The notes under the pieces: generated by a model
What the model was told of the DNA's origin: nothing
What the model saw: only the letters and a program-made list of their open reading frames with translations
Databases searched by the model: none
Program-made: the position numbers and the translations under genes
Shown here: positions 10,730-28,839 of the stretch, one piece after another
Position numbering within the stretch: position 1 is the first letter of the stretch
Layout: each line of letters begins with the position of its first letter
Source: a virus
Virus record (IMG/VR): IMGVR_UViG_3300036822_000063
Coordinates: 1-29,092 of that record
DNA: 29,092 nucleotides
Direction: 5' to 3' (one strand)

Positions 10730-11281
10730 TCAGGTCTTCGGCTGGGCGAATGGCGGCAGTCCCTGGTCCGGGTGGACGGGCGGCCGCGGTAGTCCCTGGT
10801 CAGGTCTCAGATCGGCATCGATCACTACGTAGCGATACCGCACCCCTGGCATGCCGGCGATCAGCACCAGCGCCAGATACTTGCCATGCACGCCCGGTGG
10901 CAACGGCGGCCAGATCGAGCCGGGCGGCAGCGACGGCAGGTGTCCAGCGGTCGGCGGCTCACCGGGGAGGCCCTGGTCAGGGCGCCCAGGGAACGGCGGC
11001 AGTCCCTGGTCGGGGTGTCCAGGTCCCCCTGGCAATCCCTGGTCAGGATGCACCGGAGGTCGCGGCAGTCCCTGGTCAGGGTGGAGCGGCAGCCACGGAC
11101 GCTCTGGCGTCAACGGCGGCCAGATGCCCGGCGGAGGGGCAGGCGGATCAATCGAGGGATATTCGGGGCTGCCCTCGTCGATGCCATAGTCCGGATCGAC
11201 CGGGCCTTCGCCCTCCGGCAACTCCTGGTCAGGATGACCTCGCCGACTACGAACGCGCAGGAAACCAGAAACGAACGGCAT
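10730..11281 (-). CDS. Proline-rich PDQGLP-repeat protein, 183 aa
   Basis: Seven copies of PDQ(G/E)LP, mostly as HPDQGLP with Pro/Gly linkers, occupy the N-terminal two thirds and the last 25 residues. Between them a short ordered part (GKYLALVLIAGMPGVRYRYV) looks like a small beta domain. ATG 11281 has AGGAG 9 bases upstream. It is the first gene of the minus lysis set and diverges from the ribbon-helix-helix gene. I recall similar repeat proteins in phages and prophages of alphaproteobacteria, without a known function. A structural or cell-wall-associated role is possible, and the repeats could change in number by recombination. Confidence 0.75.
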   Translation of the reverse strand: MPFVSGFLRVRSRRGHPDQELPEGEGPVDPDYGIDEGSPEYPSIDPPAPPPGIWPPLTPERPWLPLHPDQGLPRPPVHPDQGLPGGPGHPDQGLPPFPGRPDQGLPGEPPTAGHLPSLPPGSIWPPLPPGVHGKYLALVLIAGMPGVRYRYVVIDADLRPDQGLPRPPVHPDQGLPPFAQPKT

Positions 11282-11811: not shown

Positions 11812-11838
11812 CCGGCGCGATCGATAAGGAGGGGTGAG
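11812..11838 (+). repeat. 27-bp direct repeat, copy 1 (contains ribosome-binding site)
   Basis: Identical over 27 bases to 12116-12142. It contains AAGGAGGGG and ends at the start codon of the 30-aa gene (GTG here, ATG at copy 2). It also holds the palindrome CGATCG. Confidence 0.9.
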
Positions 11839-11931
11839 GTGGAAACCATCGCATTTGGACTAGGGATCATAGCGCTGCCGTTTGTCATAGGATGCGTGCT
11901 GGCTGGCATCTGGCACGCTACTGTTGACTAG
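11839..11931 (+). CDS. Single-TM mini-protein, 30 aa
   Basis: GTG 11839 follows an AAGGAGGGG ribosome-binding site. The product is almost entirely one hydrophobic helix (FGLGIIALPFVIGCVLAGIW) with acidic ends. Its stop overlaps the next gene's start by 8 bases. Function unknown; possibly a lysis or membrane-effector peptide. Confidence 0.6.
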   Translation: METIAFGLGIIALPFVIGCVLAGIWHATVD

Positions 11932-12115: not shown

Positions 12116-12142
12116 CCGGCGCGATCGATAAGGAGGGGTGAG
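12116..12142 (+). repeat. 27-bp direct repeat, copy 2 (contains ribosome-binding site)
   Basis: Perfect copy of 11812-11838, beginning immediately after the upstream stop codon and ending directly at ATG 12143. Confidence 0.9.
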
Positions 12143-12382
12143 ATGTTGTTTCTCATCGGCTGTATTCTGGTCGCGTTGCTTTCGGTGTGTGTCAGCAATC
12201 GACTGGAGACACGCGCTCTCATACGGAGCCTTCCCCCGCGGCGCACAGATGCCGAGCGGGCACAGGACAAAGAGCGCGGGCGTCAGGACCGCATCGAGCA
12301 AGCCCGCGTCGCTGCGGCCAATGCCGCCGGCGCCAAGGCATATTGCGAACGCTGGGGCTCGCTACCATCACGGTTGCCCTGA
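12143..12382 (+). CDS. Signal-anchor plus coiled-coil protein, 79 aa (spanin-like?)
   Basis: An N-terminal membrane anchor (MLFLIGCILVALLSVCV) is followed by a charged helix (DAERAQDKERGRQDRIEQAR). An inner-membrane spanin has this layout, and the gene lies with other lysis-type genes, but no partner lipoprotein was found. Its 3' end overlaps the convergent virion gene by 15 bases. Confidence 0.6.
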   Translation: MLFLIGCILVALLSVCVSNRLETRALIRSLPPRRTDAERAQDKERGRQDRIEQARVAAANAAGAKAYCERWGSLPSRLP

Positions 12383-16755: not shown

Positions 16756-17925
16756 TTACAGCCCTATGGCGCCGAGTGCGCCGGGGAACAGGCCGCTGGT
16801 CGGGTTGAGCAGTGTGTTGCCGATGCCGAGCAGCGAGGTCGCGCCGCCCAGCAAGCCTGCGGTCGGGTTGGAATATTGCGTCGTCTGGCCGTAGCCGTAA
16901 TTGCTTCCCGTGGTGTTGTATGGCACGCCCGAGAGTGACGACAGCAGCAGATCGAGGTTCTGCACCGGCCAGTCCTGGCCTTGGTAGAACTGGCCCATCT
17001 GCGCGTTAATGTCTTGCTGCTGCTGCGCCTGCTGCGCGGTGCCGACCCCGCCAAGCGCCTGGGTGGCTTGCAACCCCTGGGTCTGCTGCGCGTTGGCGAT
17101 CGACGGGATCTGCTGCGCCGCGTTGATGCCGAGGTTCAGGTTGGTGCCGGCCATCTGCTGCGCTTGCGTCGCCGCGGGGGCGTAGCCGGCCTGTCCCATG
17201 CCGGCGAGCGTGCCGGCTGCGCCATAGCCCTGCTGCCCGGCCTGCAGCGCCGCCTGCGTGGCCGGGGTGAGTGCGGTGTTCCACTGATTGTTGAGCAGGT
17301 TGCCGAGATACTGCTCGCTGCCGAGCGCCGCCTGCGACTGCGCCACGCCCTCTTGCACGCCCTGCCGCGAGCCACCGAACGCACCCGCCTGATTGGCGCC
17401 CGCGCCGATGTTCTGCAGGTTCTGGTGCAGCTGCTGCTGCATCAGCTGGTTGGTCGGGTCGATGACCGACTGCGTGTATGGCGACATCAGCGCTTGGGTG
17501 TTCTGACCGATCTGCTGCGCCGTTGCCGGGCCACCTTGCAGGTAGCCGCCGAGCAGCCCCTGCGCCGGCTGCATGACGGCGTTTTGATAATTTTGGTATA
17601 ACGAATTCGTTAGATCGTTAGTGGCTCCCGGAGTTTCCGACTGTAGATTAGGCAGTACACCTTGCCATTGATTCGCCGCAGCTTGATTGGCTGCGGTAGT
17701 GCCCCCTTGCAAATTAGCGATTTGTTGGTAGGCAGCCGTCGTTGCATCTGGCGTTCCAGCTACTATTTGTCCCGAATACGGATCGTACGGCCTCTGCGCC
17801 AACTGCTGCCCGGTCTGAACAGCACCCTGCGCCGCGCTCGACAGCCAGTCTGGTATAGACTGCGACGTACTTGAGGCTTGTTGTGTCGGCACTGTCGTTG
17901 TGCTGCCGCCTTTGCCGCCCGACAC
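16756..17925 (-). CDS. Gln/Ala-rich virion protein, 389 aa
   Basis: An internal or tail-type virion protein of short-tailed phages. The start resembles a common phage pattern (IPDWLSSAAQ, then PYDPYSGQIVAG). The body is a long Gln/Ala/Asn-rich helical region with many AQQ and QAQ runs, and a Gly-rich hydrophobic C-terminus (LLGGATSLLGIGNTLL). The start is GTG 17925 with AGGGGG upstream. Codon use changes sharply near 17580: the first ~115 codons are much AT-richer than the rest. The AT-rich end faces the inserted endonuclease gene at 18029, consistent with a converted or transferred tract. Confidence 0.65.
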   Translation of the reverse strand: MSGGKGGSTTTVPTQQASSTSQSIPDWLSSAAQGAVQTGQQLAQRPYDPYSGQIVAGTPDATTAAYQQIANLQGGTTAANQAAANQWQGVLPNLQSETPGATNDLTNSLYQNYQNAVMQPAQGLLGGYLQGGPATAQQIGQNTQALMSPYTQSVIDPTNQLMQQQLHQNLQNIGAGANQAGAFGGSRQGVQEGVAQSQAALGSEQYLGNLLNNQWNTALTPATQAALQAGQQGYGAAGTLAGMGQAGYAPAATQAQQMAGTNLNLGINAAQQIPSIANAQQTQGLQATQALGGVGTAQQAQQQQDINAQMGQFYQGQDWPVQNLDLLLSSLSGVPYNTTGSNYGYGQTTQYSNPTAGLLGGATSLLGIGNTLLNPTSGLFPGALGAIGL

Positions 17926-17950: not shown

Positions 17951-18028
17951 TATAAAGCGGGACGGCACCAGCGTTGACGCGCCGATGCCGTCCCTGACCA
18001 TCGTTCCCATGCGGAGGAACAGACGGCT
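17951..18028 (+). promoter_or_regulatory. Leader module of endonuclease gene A (TATAA element, hairpin, RBS)
   Basis: TATAAAGCGGG is followed by a stem GGGACGGCA / TGCCGTCCC with an inner GCGT/ACGC pairing, then CTGACC, a GCGGAGGA ribosome-binding site and CGGCTATGCCAT across the start. The module has nearly the same order and length as 27070-27145, and its stem bases differ in a compensatory way. TATAAA could be a -10 element; no good -35 is seen. Confidence 0.6.
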
Positions 18029-18523
18029 ATGCCATACAAAGACCCTGAGAAGGCTCGCGTCTATCATCGTGAGCACGCGCGCGCTTGGCGTTCCAAAAAT
18101 CCTGAAGGGCCACGCAAAGCAAGCCGCAAGTGGCGCGCGAACAACCCTGACAAGACAAGCGCGAGTCATCGAGAATGGTGCGCCAAGAACTCTGAGAGGG
18201 TTGCTTACCTCAGACATAAGGGAACGGCGAAAAGGCGAAGAATACCGTTTTTGCTCACCTTTGAGGAGTGGGCAGCAATCTGGCAGGCCAGCTGCAAATG
18301 GGAGCAACGGGGCTTTAACGATCCTGAGAAATACTGCATGGCTCGCACCGGAGACCAAGGTCCCTATGCTGTCGGCAACGTGCGCATCTGCACGAACGCA
18401 GAGAACTTTGCGGAAAACGATGCAAAACGTCGTGGCGGCACGAGGAGCGAACAATCCCGCGCTCGGATGTCCGAAGCTGCGCAAAGGCGCTGGGCGCGTC
18501 ATCGCGCCACCAAAGGCTTATGA
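18029..18523 (+). CDS. Homing-endonuclease-like protein A, 164 aa, antisense to late operon
   Basis: Probably a mobile DNA-binding or endonuclease-type protein. The N-terminus repeats a short basic helix (YKDPEKARVYHREHARAW, KNPEGPRKASRKWRANNP, REWCAKNSERV), common in phage HNH and EndoVII-like proteins. The core has FEEWAAIWQAS (about 78-88) and MARTGDQGPYAVGNVRI (104-120), a pattern I recall from phage endonuclease-annotated proteins. No HNH, GIY-YIG or LAGLIDADG catalytic set is visible, so activity is unproven. It sits on the opposite strand to all adjacent late genes, with its own leader. ATG 18029 has GGAGGA upstream. The 3' end overlaps the convergent GNAT-like gene by 25 bases. Confidence 0.65.
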   Translation: MPYKDPEKARVYHREHARAWRSKNPEGPRKASRKWRANNPDKTSASHREWCAKNSERVAYLRHKGTAKRRRIPFLLTFEEWAAIWQASCKWEQRGFNDPEKYCMARTGDQGPYAVGNVRICTNAENFAENDAKRRGGTRSEQSRARMSEAAQRRWARHRATKGL

Positions 18524-26181: not shown

Positions 26182-26733
26182 CTACCCGCCCGGCGGCCGT
26201 GCTGCCTGCGCTGACTGCTGTGCCTGCCACGCGGCTATTTGCTGGGGCGTCCAGCTGGTTCCCGGCGGCGCTGGCGGCGGCTGTGGCGGCGGATGGTGGA
26301 TCTGCGGCGCCGCGCGCGGCGAGGCCGATGGCGGCGGCTCCTGGCCCTCCTGGCCGCTCACCGGCACCTGCTGGCTGGCGACCACATCGGGTGCGGCCTT
26401 GCGTGCCGCCTCACCGGCGGCCATTGCAGCGGCGCGCAGCGCCTCCATCGCGCGCGGCTCCTGCATCTGGCCGTACAGCCGGACCAGCCGCACCGGATCG
26501 ATGTCGTCGAACAACACGGGCGGGGCGAAGTTCGGCACCTCGGTCTCGGGCGTGACGCCTGGTGTGGGCTTCATCTGCGCGAGCGGGCGAGCGGTCGTGT
26601 CGGTGGCTGATGGCATGTTATTCGCTCCGTTGTTGGAGAGTTTGAGATCGAAAATCGGCAGACCGCTCATGACGAGCGGGTTGCGGCGGTAGTCGTCGAT
26701 CCATGCTCGGTCTGCAGCGATGGCCTCCGACAT
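26182..26733 (-). CDS. Proline-rich late protein, 183 aa
   Basis: No family recognised. Helical N-terminus (MSEAIAADRAWIDDYRRNP), a middle helix (MEALRAAAMAAGEAARKAAP) and a disordered Pro/Gln-rich C-terminus (PPPQPPPAPPG). ATG 26733 is chosen over GTG 26736, since it gives better spacing to GGAG and forms TGATG with the upstream stop. Likely a structural accessory or scaffold-type protein. Confidence 0.6.
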   Translation of the reverse strand: MSEAIAADRAWIDDYRRNPLVMSGLPIFDLKLSNNGANNMPSATDTTARPLAQMKPTPGVTPETEVPNFAPPVLFDDIDPVRLVRLYGQMQEPRAMEALRAAAMAAGEAARKAAPDVVASQQVPVSGQEGQEPPPSASPRAAPQIHHPPPQPPPAPPGTSWTPQQIAAWQAQQSAQAARPPGG

Positions 26734-27053
26734 CACAGTCTCCTGGCGTTGTCGGTACGGAACAGGCGGGCTTCGCGGCTATCGAGCCACGCGTTCATCG
26801 CTTTGGGGTCTTTCGCGATGCCGAGCCGCATCAGCCGCTGCCAAATTACGAGCGGGATGCGCGCAACGTGCGTCACGTCACGCCGCACCAACGGGTCGTA
26901 GGACGACGCGATGGCTTTGGCGGACTCAACGATGGGCTTGGTGTTCTGGCTCTGCACGATCACAGGCAGGCCGGTTTCGCCGTCGGTGAACACCTCGGTG
27001 GAGCGCTGGGTTGCTTCGTCGTAATTCTCATACAGGGGGATATCGCTACTCAT
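26733..27053 (-). CDS. Late-operon hypothetical protein, 106 aa
   Basis: No named family. Contains a beta-like stretch (GLPVIVQSQNTKPIVESAKA) and a helical C-terminus (IPLVIWQRLMRLGIAKDP, then LDSREARLFRT). It is the first late gene downstream of the EndoVII-like insertion, and its start lies only 17 bases from the TATAA element of that insertion's leader, so the two transcripts would start back to back. Confidence 0.65.
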   Translation of the reverse strand: MSSDIPLYENYDEATQRSTEVFTDGETGLPVIVQSQNTKPIVESAKAIASSYDPLVRRDVTHVARIPLVIWQRLMRLGIAKDPKAMNAWLDSREARLFRTDNARRL

Positions 27054-27069: not shown

Positions 27070-27145
27070 TATAAGCGGGGCGTTGCTGGCTCATCACAGC
27101 CAACAGCGCCCCTGACCCTGATCCTGTATGAGAGGACCGAAGGCT
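27070..27145 (+). promoter_or_regulatory. Leader module of endonuclease gene B (TATAA element, hairpin, RBS)
   Basis: TATAAGCGGGG, preceded by TGA that gives an extended -10 pattern, is followed by a 15-bp stem (GGGGCGTTGCTGGCT / AGCCAACAGCGCCCC, one mismatch and one G-T pair). Then CTGACC, AGAGGA and AGGCTATGCCAT across the start. It aligns end to end with the leader at 17951-18028. Confidence 0.6.
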
Positions 27146-27784
27146 ATGCCATCCAACGATGAAGACGCCCTGCGTGCAATCACAAACGCCGGTAGCAACA
27201 CCTGGCGGCGAGCGAACATCGAGCATAGGCGCGCATATGCAAATACGTATAACGCCGCGCACCGCGAGGAACGCGCCGTCTACATGAAAGAGTGGGAAGC
27301 TAAGAACAAGGAAGCCCGGCGCACCTATCGGCTCAACCGCTACCAAGAGAACAAAGAGAAGCTCAGTAAACAAAGCGAGGCGCGTGTTACGGCCTGGGTT
27401 GCGGCAAATCCAGAAGCACGTAAGGAACACCAGCGCCGCTACCGCGAGAAGAACCGCGAGAAAATCCAGCAGTACAGCCACGATTACATTCGGGACGAAA
27501 ACGGCGAGATCAACGCTCAAGAGAAACAGCATCAGGCACGCCAGCGCGTCCAGCGTGCCGTCGACTTGGATACGTTGGCAGGACGCCCGCGGCCTGAGGT
27601 CTGCGAGATCTGCGGCGGAGCACCCGACAAGGGGAAGGTGCTGCACTTCGATCATTGCCACACCAAGGGACATTTCCGTGGATGGCTCTGCCGCAAGTGC
27701 AACCTGGCGTTGGGTAACGTAGAAGACAATATCCAACGCCTGGAGCAACTCATCGCTTACCTCAAGCGCGACGCCGGCGCCTGA
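27146..27784 (+). CDS. Endonuclease VII-like (HNH) protein B, 212 aa, antisense to late operon
   Basis: A recombination endonuclease VII-type HNH nuclease, probably acting as a mobile homing element. The C-terminal core holds CEICGG (C153, C156), LHFDHCHTKG (H167, D169, H170, H172), RGWLCRKCN (C182, C185) and LGNVEDN, the full zinc and active-site set of the family. The N-terminal ~125 residues are basic helical repeats (YMKEWEAKNKEARRTYRLNR, YREKNREKIQQY) like those of protein A. ATG 27146 is chosen by matching leader A; ATG 27128 is in frame but lies inside the ribosome-binding region. It sits between the capsid gene and the next late gene, on the opposite strand. Confidence 0.85.
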   Translation: MPSNDEDALRAITNAGSNTWRRANIEHRRAYANTYNAAHREERAVYMKEWEAKNKEARRTYRLNRYQENKEKLSKQSEARVTAWVAANPEARKEHQRRYREKNREKIQQYSHDYIRDENGEINAQEKQHQARQRVQRAVDLDTLAGRPRPEVCEICGGAPDKGKVLHFDHCHTKGHFRGWLCRKCNLALGNVEDNIQRLEQLIAYLKRDAGA

Positions 27785-27819: not shown

Positions 27820-28803
27820 TTACTGATTTAGATCTGCAATCCAGGCGTGCGACTTCGGTGCTGTAGGGCGCAAGCAGCCCTCGAATACAACCCCGCCTTG
27901 CGAATTGTCGCCCGTTTGGGCGTAATCTTGCTGAATCATATCGCGCTCAGGTAGTGGTGCCAGTTCGATGTAGTCCGTCGACACCAGCAGCATCTGATGC
28001 GGTGGGCAGAACCGGTCGGGTGCGAGTTGCAGCGTGCCGAAGTCGGTGCGGAAGACATCGACCGCCCCCTGGATGGTCATGGAGTCGCGCGGTGATGCGG
28101 TGACGATGTTCTGCGCGACGATGGCGTTGTTGGTGCCGCCCTGCGACAGCGTGGCAAAATAGAGTTTCACCGAGCCTGACATGATGCCGAGGTCGGGCTT
28201 GCCGCCGGCCTGCCAAGCTTGCTGCATGGCGGTCTGCACGTGGGCGAGATCGAGATCGTAGAGGGTGCCTGCGGTGCCGGCATTGGAGCCGTCGCCGATC
28301 GGCATGACGCCTGCGCCTGCGCCGCGTGCGCCGTTGACGCAATAGGTTGGCAGTCCGGACATATGGCGCGGATCGGTGACGGTCTTTACCAGCGGGCTGG
28401 TGATGGCTAGCTCAAGGTCGCGCTTGCACTCCATGCCGCGCAGAATCATTTGCCTATTGTATTCATCCTCGCCGCCGGCCACGTCGACCACGCGCAGAGT
28501 GTTGGACACGCCGACGGTGTGGGCGATGATCTGGCAGACGTTGTTGAGCCGCACCGGCTTGAGCACCACCTGCATGACGGCGGTGAAGCCTTCGGGCTGG
28601 AAGTTGTCGTATGCGGGGTTGAGTTCCTGGACCAGCCACTCGGTGAGGGTCTGCGATGCACCTACGCGGGCGCATGCGCTAACTAATGGTGTCTCATCCG
28701 GATCGATACGGTAAATGATATTTGCGAGGTCCTCACGTACACCAACAGCGCCGGTCTCGATGTAAGTGCCTGCGGGCGCTGAGCCCATACTTGCAAGAGC
28801 CAT
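27820..28803 (-). CDS. Major capsid protein, SU10 / DUF5309 family, 327 aa
   Basis: Forms the head shell. VREDLANIIYRIDPDETPLV at about residues 22-41, then TEWLVQEL, LNNVCQIIAHTVGVSNTLRV and GMECKRDLELAI fit the SU10-type (DUF5309) capsid family. Length 327 aa is usual. ATG 28803 (MALASMG) has GGAG 8 bases upstream; GTG 28812 would add three residues. First late gene in the window. The last ~45 codons, next to the EndoVII-like insertion, look more AT-rich than the middle of the gene. Confidence 0.82.
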   Translation of the reverse strand: MALASMGSAPAGTYIETGAVGVREDLANIIYRIDPDETPLVSACARVGASQTLTEWLVQELNPAYDNFQPEGFTAVMQVVLKPVRLNNVCQIIAHTVGVSNTLRVVDVAGGEDEYNRQMILRGMECKRDLELAITSPLVKTVTDPRHMSGLPTYCVNGARGAGAGVMPIGDGSNAGTAGTLYDLDLAHVQTAMQQAWQAGGKPDLGIMSGSVKLYFATLSQGGTNNAIVAQNIVTASPRDSMTIQGAVDVFRTDFGTLQLAPDRFCPPHQMLLVSTDYIELAPLPERDMIQQDYAQTGDNSQGGVVFEGCLRPTAPKSHAWIADLNQ

Positions 28804-28839
28804 TGAAGCCACTCCATTGCATGCGCGCGTGCTTCAATG
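28801..28839 (-). promoter_or_regulatory. Hairpin at the capsid gene start
   Basis: CATTGAAGC (28801-28809) and GCTTCAATG (28831-28839) form a perfect 9-bp inverted repeat. On the mRNA the right stem arm ends in the start ATG, and the ribosome-binding GGAG lies in the loop. This could tune capsid translation. Confidence 0.45.

Follow-up and report, generated by a model that had tools for sequence, protein, structure and literature searches.

A structured two-hairpin leader, probably a portable control region, upstream of nuclease and other accessory genes in phages

The closest described counterparts of the leader reported here are the PeSL (“promoter early stem-loop”) elements of T4-like myoviruses, which are composite promoter-terminator motifs (Arbiol et al. 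2010; Comeau et al. 2014; as related in parts of PMC4503421 and PMC3950731). In these parts, a PeSL is a promoter with a stem-loop in an intergenic gap and is tied to gene shuffling between related phages. Hairpins at ribosome-binding sites (RBS) are known from T4-type homing genes (I-TevI, I-TevII, I-TevIII, segB, and mobE), along with seg43(25), where a stable hairpin lies just upstream of the RBS and not over it; each of them is a case by itself, in which the promoter is positioned so that the hairpin is avoided (PMC2988022). In cluster K mycobacteriophages, the SAS/ESAS gene-start motif precedes varied gene families and has, in about half of its copies, an upstream inverted repeat that keeps a consensus sequence within each subcluster; the sections of that report used here describe no link to a promoter or to nucleases (PMC3203893). 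The haloarchaeal virus HGTV-1 has a TATA-like box with an inverted repeat before many ORFs, an arrangement that its authors likened to PeSLs (in the relevant part of PMC3950731). For T4 itself, no promoter has been found for segD and seven free-standing endonucleases have been called promoterless (PMC2988022). Even T4 thus poses the question of how a mobile nuclease gene comes to be expressed once it has landed, above all when it points against an essential operon.

Here, we propose that two leaders in one viral sequence are probably copies of a single 5' control region that is portable and serves mobile accessory genes, homing-type nucleases above all. The sequence, called the window below, is the whole stretch of 29,092 nucleotides that was analysed (IMG/VR record IMGVR_UViG_3300036822_000063, positions 1 to 29,092). 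On the best reading, which is by analogy, the leader would work like the T4 PeSL cassettes but with an RNA anatomy of its own. As in the PeSLs, so far as the parts cited describe them, a promoter-like box (so called from sequence statistics only) adjoins a stem-loop in an intergenic gap, and genes are exchanged with joints at the leader. Unlike in those accounts, the hairpin stands downstream of the promoter and ahead of the start codon, lacks a T-run, and is followed by a TRACC element and a Shine-Dalgarno hairpin, and the leader occurs mainly before nuclease genes and outside the T4-like myoviruses, the window's capsid being of SU10/LUZ24-type. With the T4 homing genes it shares RNA hairpins in the leaders of phage homing endonuclease genes, the difference being that a single leader with two hairpins is found repeatedly before endonuclease genes of unrelated families. 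In contrast to SAS/ESAS as described in the sections cited, the stem sequence is free and only the pairing is kept, and the SAS 13-mer GGGATAGGAGCCC with its 17-bp consensus inverted repeats is absent from the inspected leaders, which have GGAGG-type sites. HGTV-1, compared by the cited description only, is alike in placing a box and an inverted repeat before ORFs but is an archaeal virus. Set against a classical moron with its own promoter and own terminator, the leader has a promoter-like box, and a terminator-like site was found in 2 of 108 cassettes, with none called at either window leader. P1, the first hairpin, was itself rejected as a terminator, being followed by TRACC and no T-run.

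The two leaders lie on the plus strand at 17951-18028 and 27070-27145, and their positions, the order of their parts and their lengths (78 and 76 bases) are as given in an earlier note on this DNA. Leader 1 starts with a -10-like box, TATAAA (17951-17956; assigned from sequence and from the family's -10, -35, and extended -10 statistics), and continues with hairpin P1 (17959-17994, by RNA folding), the conserved TRACC element in the form TGACC (17995-17999, by family alignments) and a second hairpin, P2 (18003-18020; GTTCC/GGAAC; by folding and family statistics), which contains the Shine-Dalgarno sequence GGAGGAA. Behind it lies a gene for an HNH-type endonuclease of 164 aa (18029-18523, plus strand), an identity which rests on PHROG (16521/3118/1035), as Pfam gave no match for this ORF; a late gene for a DNA-ejection-like protein occupies 16756-17925. 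Leader 2 has the box TATAAG (27070-27075; sequence and family -10 and -35 statistics), P1 (27077-27112, by RNA folding), TGACC (27113-27117, by family alignments) and P2 (about 27119-27139; TCCT/AGGA core; by folding and family statistics), which pairs with the Shine-Dalgarno sequence AGAGGA. It precedes an endonuclease VII gene of 212 aa (27146-27784, plus strand; Pfam PF02945, E=7e-18), flanked by the SU10-type major capsid gene (27820-28812, minus strand; PF17236, E=2.4e-63) and by another late gene (26733-27053, minus strand). Both leader-borne genes run antisense to the late genes, in agreement with the earlier note, which had overlooked P2, the hairpin over the Shine-Dalgarno site that is present across the family.

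Both P1 elements fold as imperfect 15-bp hairpins, with stem arms GGGACGGCA/TGCCGTCCC in leader 1 (folding z-score -2.25) and GGGGCGTTG/(C)AGCGCCCC in leader 2 (-2.70). Covariance models R1 and R2 score leader 1 at 58.9 and 51.6 bits and leader 2 at 59.8 and 42.7 bits, values which are not independent, as both models were built partly from these two leaders. By themselves, the window's two copies are weak evidence, because short motifs there are near chance: TATAARCGGG with at most one mismatch occurs twice in the window against 1.1 expected.

The leader family is real, since a scan of viral contigs with the pattern TATAA-N0-1-GCGGG-gap-CCTGACC returned 99 stretches that include about 50 clear relatives, each having a fixed element of 47-50 nt, behind which come a ribosome-binding site and an ORF; the remaining stretches look like chance. 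The observation of the earlier note is thus real, and the family is larger than it reported. Its common layout is a TATAAT box, an imperfect P1 of about 34-36 nt, TRACC, P2 across the Shine-Dalgarno site, and a start codon, usually as ATGGCT or ATGCCA; the wider family varies at the stem foot and in the spacing to the -10 box. The covariance-model search that the earlier note had suggested was run with R1, a model of 28 leader copies. Further copies with compensatory changes lie upstream of HNH, endonuclease VII and GIY-YIG genes, and R1 also found copies beyond the reach of the pattern (TATAGTGCGG...CCCTAACC and CTAGAAACGGAACGG...CCATTCCTAACC) that again have nuclease-type ORFs downstream. 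On genome contigs, the strict pattern gave chance matches only, as judged by R1. Rfam gave no match above the gathering score in the window or in 11 loci, with only sub-threshold matches at the window's two leaders, and named phages gave no megablast match to the window's first 25 kb.

The copies behind R2 all come from metagenomes or other IMG/VR records, so that named phages are not in the model. R2 matches directly before HNH genes in RHph_N3_2 (L446; two leaders, genes at 39188 and 18830), RHph_Y1_10 (L448; one leader, gene at 31826), and the Sulfitobacter phage phiGT1 (one), where the annotators record the HNH gene as absent from some relative. It also matches before DUF1515 genes in RHph_Y1_10 (35.5 bits) and, weakly, RHph_N3_2 (22.2 bits); phage phiM5 gave no R2 match. 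The carriers appear to be phages mostly of Alphaproteobacteria, the named ones infecting Rhizobium and Sulfitobacter. On bacterial genomes, R2 matched, mostly with weak scores, in at least 8 of 190 (class of a Rhizobium genome) and at least 4 of 185 (class of a Pseudomonas genome), matches which allow no host conclusion.

As the earlier note had suspected from two copies, the stems vary widely in sequence across the family while pairing is kept. In P1, two-sided changes occur at 12 of 15 pairs, with covariation of 0.484 against 0.153 when shuffled and at most 0.18 when slid, and of 0.427 against 0.123 in 94 leaders, scores that are inflated to the extent that the covariance alignments (A1, A4) were partly selected by pairing. 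For this reason, the fair controls are copies found later by model and 108 unfiltered sites from a hairpin-free scan (CCCTRACC, GGAGG, and ATGGCT required, with no pairing condition). At these 108 sites, at least 7 of 10 P1 foot positions are paired in 79% against 29% when shuffled, and at least 6 consecutive foot pairs form in 26% against 1%. Compensation is clearest between the two leaders of RHph_N3_2 (L446), in which the P1 feet read GGGTCG/CGACCC and GAACCC/GGGTTC, and the P2 stems CGATC/GATCG and CGAAC/GTTCG. P2 is a weak hairpin (4-6 or 4-7 bp) of variable loop length with the Shine-Dalgarno site in or beside the loop; it spans that site yet often leaves GGAG in the loop. Its mean stem is 4.28 against 3.73 +/- 0.09 after the 5' parts are exchanged between leaders, and 43 of 95 stems reach at least 5 bp against 21 after such partner exchange. 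Comparative evidence thus establishes a predicted RNA-type structure of P1, TRACC, P2 over the Shine-Dalgarno site, and start codon, kept by compensatory changes. A reading of TAACCA as a CtrA half-site was not adopted, many copies having TGACC and the motif lying downstream of the box.

The box is promoter-like, and promoter activity is suggested by its surroundings in relatives. When 73 relatives are aligned on their best -10, a weak TTG appears across a spacer of 17 bp (T in 32, T in 28, and G in 28 of 73), the -35 match lies about 4.4 SD above shuffles, and G stands at -8, the extended -10 position, in 41; the -35 and -8 signals are the only independent ones, as the alignment was made by a TATAAT search. 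Upstream of the window's own two boxes there is no recognisable -35. The -10 often ends 1-4 nt before the P1 stem, and because of this spacing a normal start would fall at or inside the P1 foot, in the 5' arm of the stem. An RNA started by this promoter would then lack the foot pairs, although these covary as well, which is a tension for the promoter reading.

Behind the leaders of the hairpin-free scan, 29 of 87 proteins match HNH_3 in Pfam, others match HNH, HNH_5, endonuclease VII, NUMOD4, AP2, or GIY-YIG, and 33 of 87 fall in PHROG HNH families; by eye, roughly 50 of the 87 are nucleases. For 82 control ORFs of these loci, 46 families were obtained, and no HNH-type family is among the 25 listed; the others may include weak matches with a single member. 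The 37 genes behind R1-type leaders include endonuclease VII (10), HNH_3 (8), HNH (4), HNH_5 (4), and GIY-YIG (1). The remaining genes, a substantial minority, encode small accessory proteins, some in recurring families. The link to endonucleases proposed in the earlier note therefore stands without its exclusivity: the leader belongs to mobile accessory genes that are mostly nucleases.

Some of the small proteins can be described further. Two families of tiny proteins recur behind the leader in different phages, one of about 37-50 aa (L356, L374, L415, and L442) and one of ~80 aa (L373, L392, L399, and L437). Four small proteins (L359, L380, L381, and L538) have an RR motif with a hydrophobic stretch, like a Tat signal. 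Two others (L385 and L395) resemble S24-peptidase-type domains (PF00717 in 2 of 87) and, by eye, are without the usual N-terminal repressor half. Short leader-borne ORFs at L028:544-735, L010:7242-7469, and L169:951-1094 look like degenerate or truncated pieces of endonuclease VII or zinc-ribbon proteins.

What might such a leader do for the gene behind it? If it is a portable control region, host sigma-70-type RNA polymerase would start at or just inside the P1 foot, giving an mRNA that begins with the hairpin. P1 could shield the 5' end from decay and insulate the ribosome site from its upstream surroundings, whatever these are, and P2 would govern how readily the Shine-Dalgarno site can be reached. 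Such an arrangement might give an inserted gene a set level of expression in any gap, also when it opposes the late operon. 5'-terminal stem-loops are known to stabilise bacterial mRNA, and the RppH of Bacillus subtilis needs at least 2 unpaired 5' nucleotides (PMC3997798); by analogy, P1 may act in the same way. We would go further, with a little less than even confidence, and suggest that P1-TRACC-P2 is an undescribed class of structured leader RNA, specialised for the expression of recently inserted selfish or accessory genes, whichever way they point, across alphaproteobacterial phages, with P1 itself as an exchangeable module.

Alternatively, the leader may be regulated, with a host or phage factor (a protein, a small RNA or the antisense late transcript) binding the P1 apex and TRACC and switching translation through P2, for example to delay the nuclease until late infection. 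T4 homing genes do time their expression by RBS hairpins (PMC2988022). P2 covers the Shine-Dalgarno site, and TRACC and the recurring apex motif G-Y-N2-3-A-R-C (34 of 81 against 10.7 +/- 3.1) show more conservation than stabilisation alone would call for, but the factor is hypothetical and the leader serves functionally unrelated genes. CsrA sites have an A two bases before GGA, and CsrA is an improbable candidate because P2 loops seem to lack it. We consider regulation of this kind unlikely.

At the capsid junction, the window has 770 bp with leader 2 and the antisense endonuclease VII gene, whereas the junction is empty (gap -4 to -1) in L475 and in L452, L454, and L456-L459, whose capsid is 88-96% identical, the late gene overlapping the capsid stop, by 4 bases in near relatives, or abutting it. 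In 13 occupied relatives (including L044), the leader is present with various antisense genes. Cassette 2 resembles homing endonuclease genes in that near relatives either have the gene or lack it at one fixed position. In the window and in L073 and L090, homologues of cassette 1 separate the ejection gene from the gene after it; they lie one junction further on in L019, L005, L064, L022, L054, L094, and L030, the first junction being nearly closed in several. In 251 non-independent pairs whose flank is shared but whose genes are unrelated, homology mostly stops at +12-14, +48-52 or +74-79 from the element start. The main breakpoints are the P1 foot, the TRACC end and the start codon; between L463 and L469 the break falls just after TGACC. 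In L053 and L055, the flank is 97% and the tail with the first 60 aa 100% identical while P1 is 49% identical, so that P1 was swapped alone. The linkage of leader and gene is loose, some relatives keeping P1 with the gene replaced and others replacing P1 alone. In these alignments, leader and gene come and go together at given junctions, with modular swapping mainly at three breakpoints. The transferable cassette with its own promoter and RNA control proposed in the earlier note is supported in part by its absence at the same junction in near relatives, its presence at other junctions elsewhere and a promoter-like -10 that abuts the hairpin, but the leader does not always move with the gene.

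Two capsid-junction inserts (L466 and L476) are without the leader. Capsid-junction relatives among L001-L099 have two P1 types (GTTGCTGGCT.. and GACGCGTAGT..) with different flanks and genes, as if P1 had been exchanged alone. Integron attC sites were considered and dropped by eye, as there are no paired core sites at both ends.

In the portable control region, the short conserved blocks could double as recombination joints between co-infecting phages, as in T4 PeSL cassettes. It has to be asked whether the leader is instead primarily such a joint at the DNA level, its blocks or single-strand hairpin allowing annealing proteins of the phage, or else a structure-specific enzyme, to swap genes and its RNA fold being secondary. 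The three narrow breaks, the replacement of P1 as a unit, and the Erf-type annealing proteins annotated in RHph_N3_2 and phiGT1 are consistent with this. Homologous recombination, however, needs shared sequence, and P1 and P2 lose sequence and keep pairing; the promoter signal, the hairpin at the Shine-Dalgarno site, and the leader's strict placement at start codons are features of expression. A mainly recombinational role is in our view quite improbable. Chance resemblance with common descent of two neighbouring mobile genes and no selection on structure, which only the near-chance motif counts in the window favour, is of negligible probability and is refuted by the compensatory changes, along with the partner-exchange control and the independent copies in named phages.

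A leader common to HNH, endonuclease VII, and GIY-YIG genes would be one portable answer to the problem of expression after landing, and it offers a sequence handle for mobile accessory genes in unannotated phages. The natural P1 swap between L053 and L055, with all else constant, makes its function directly testable.

Elsewhere in the window, tandem 33-base repeats (GGCAGTCCCTGGTC...) occupy 10748-11113, a stretch open in several frames, and a 30-base repeat, 97% identical between 11812-11841 and 12116-12145, ends in a strong ribosome site (AAGGAGGGGTGAG) right at a start codon (GTG/ATG).
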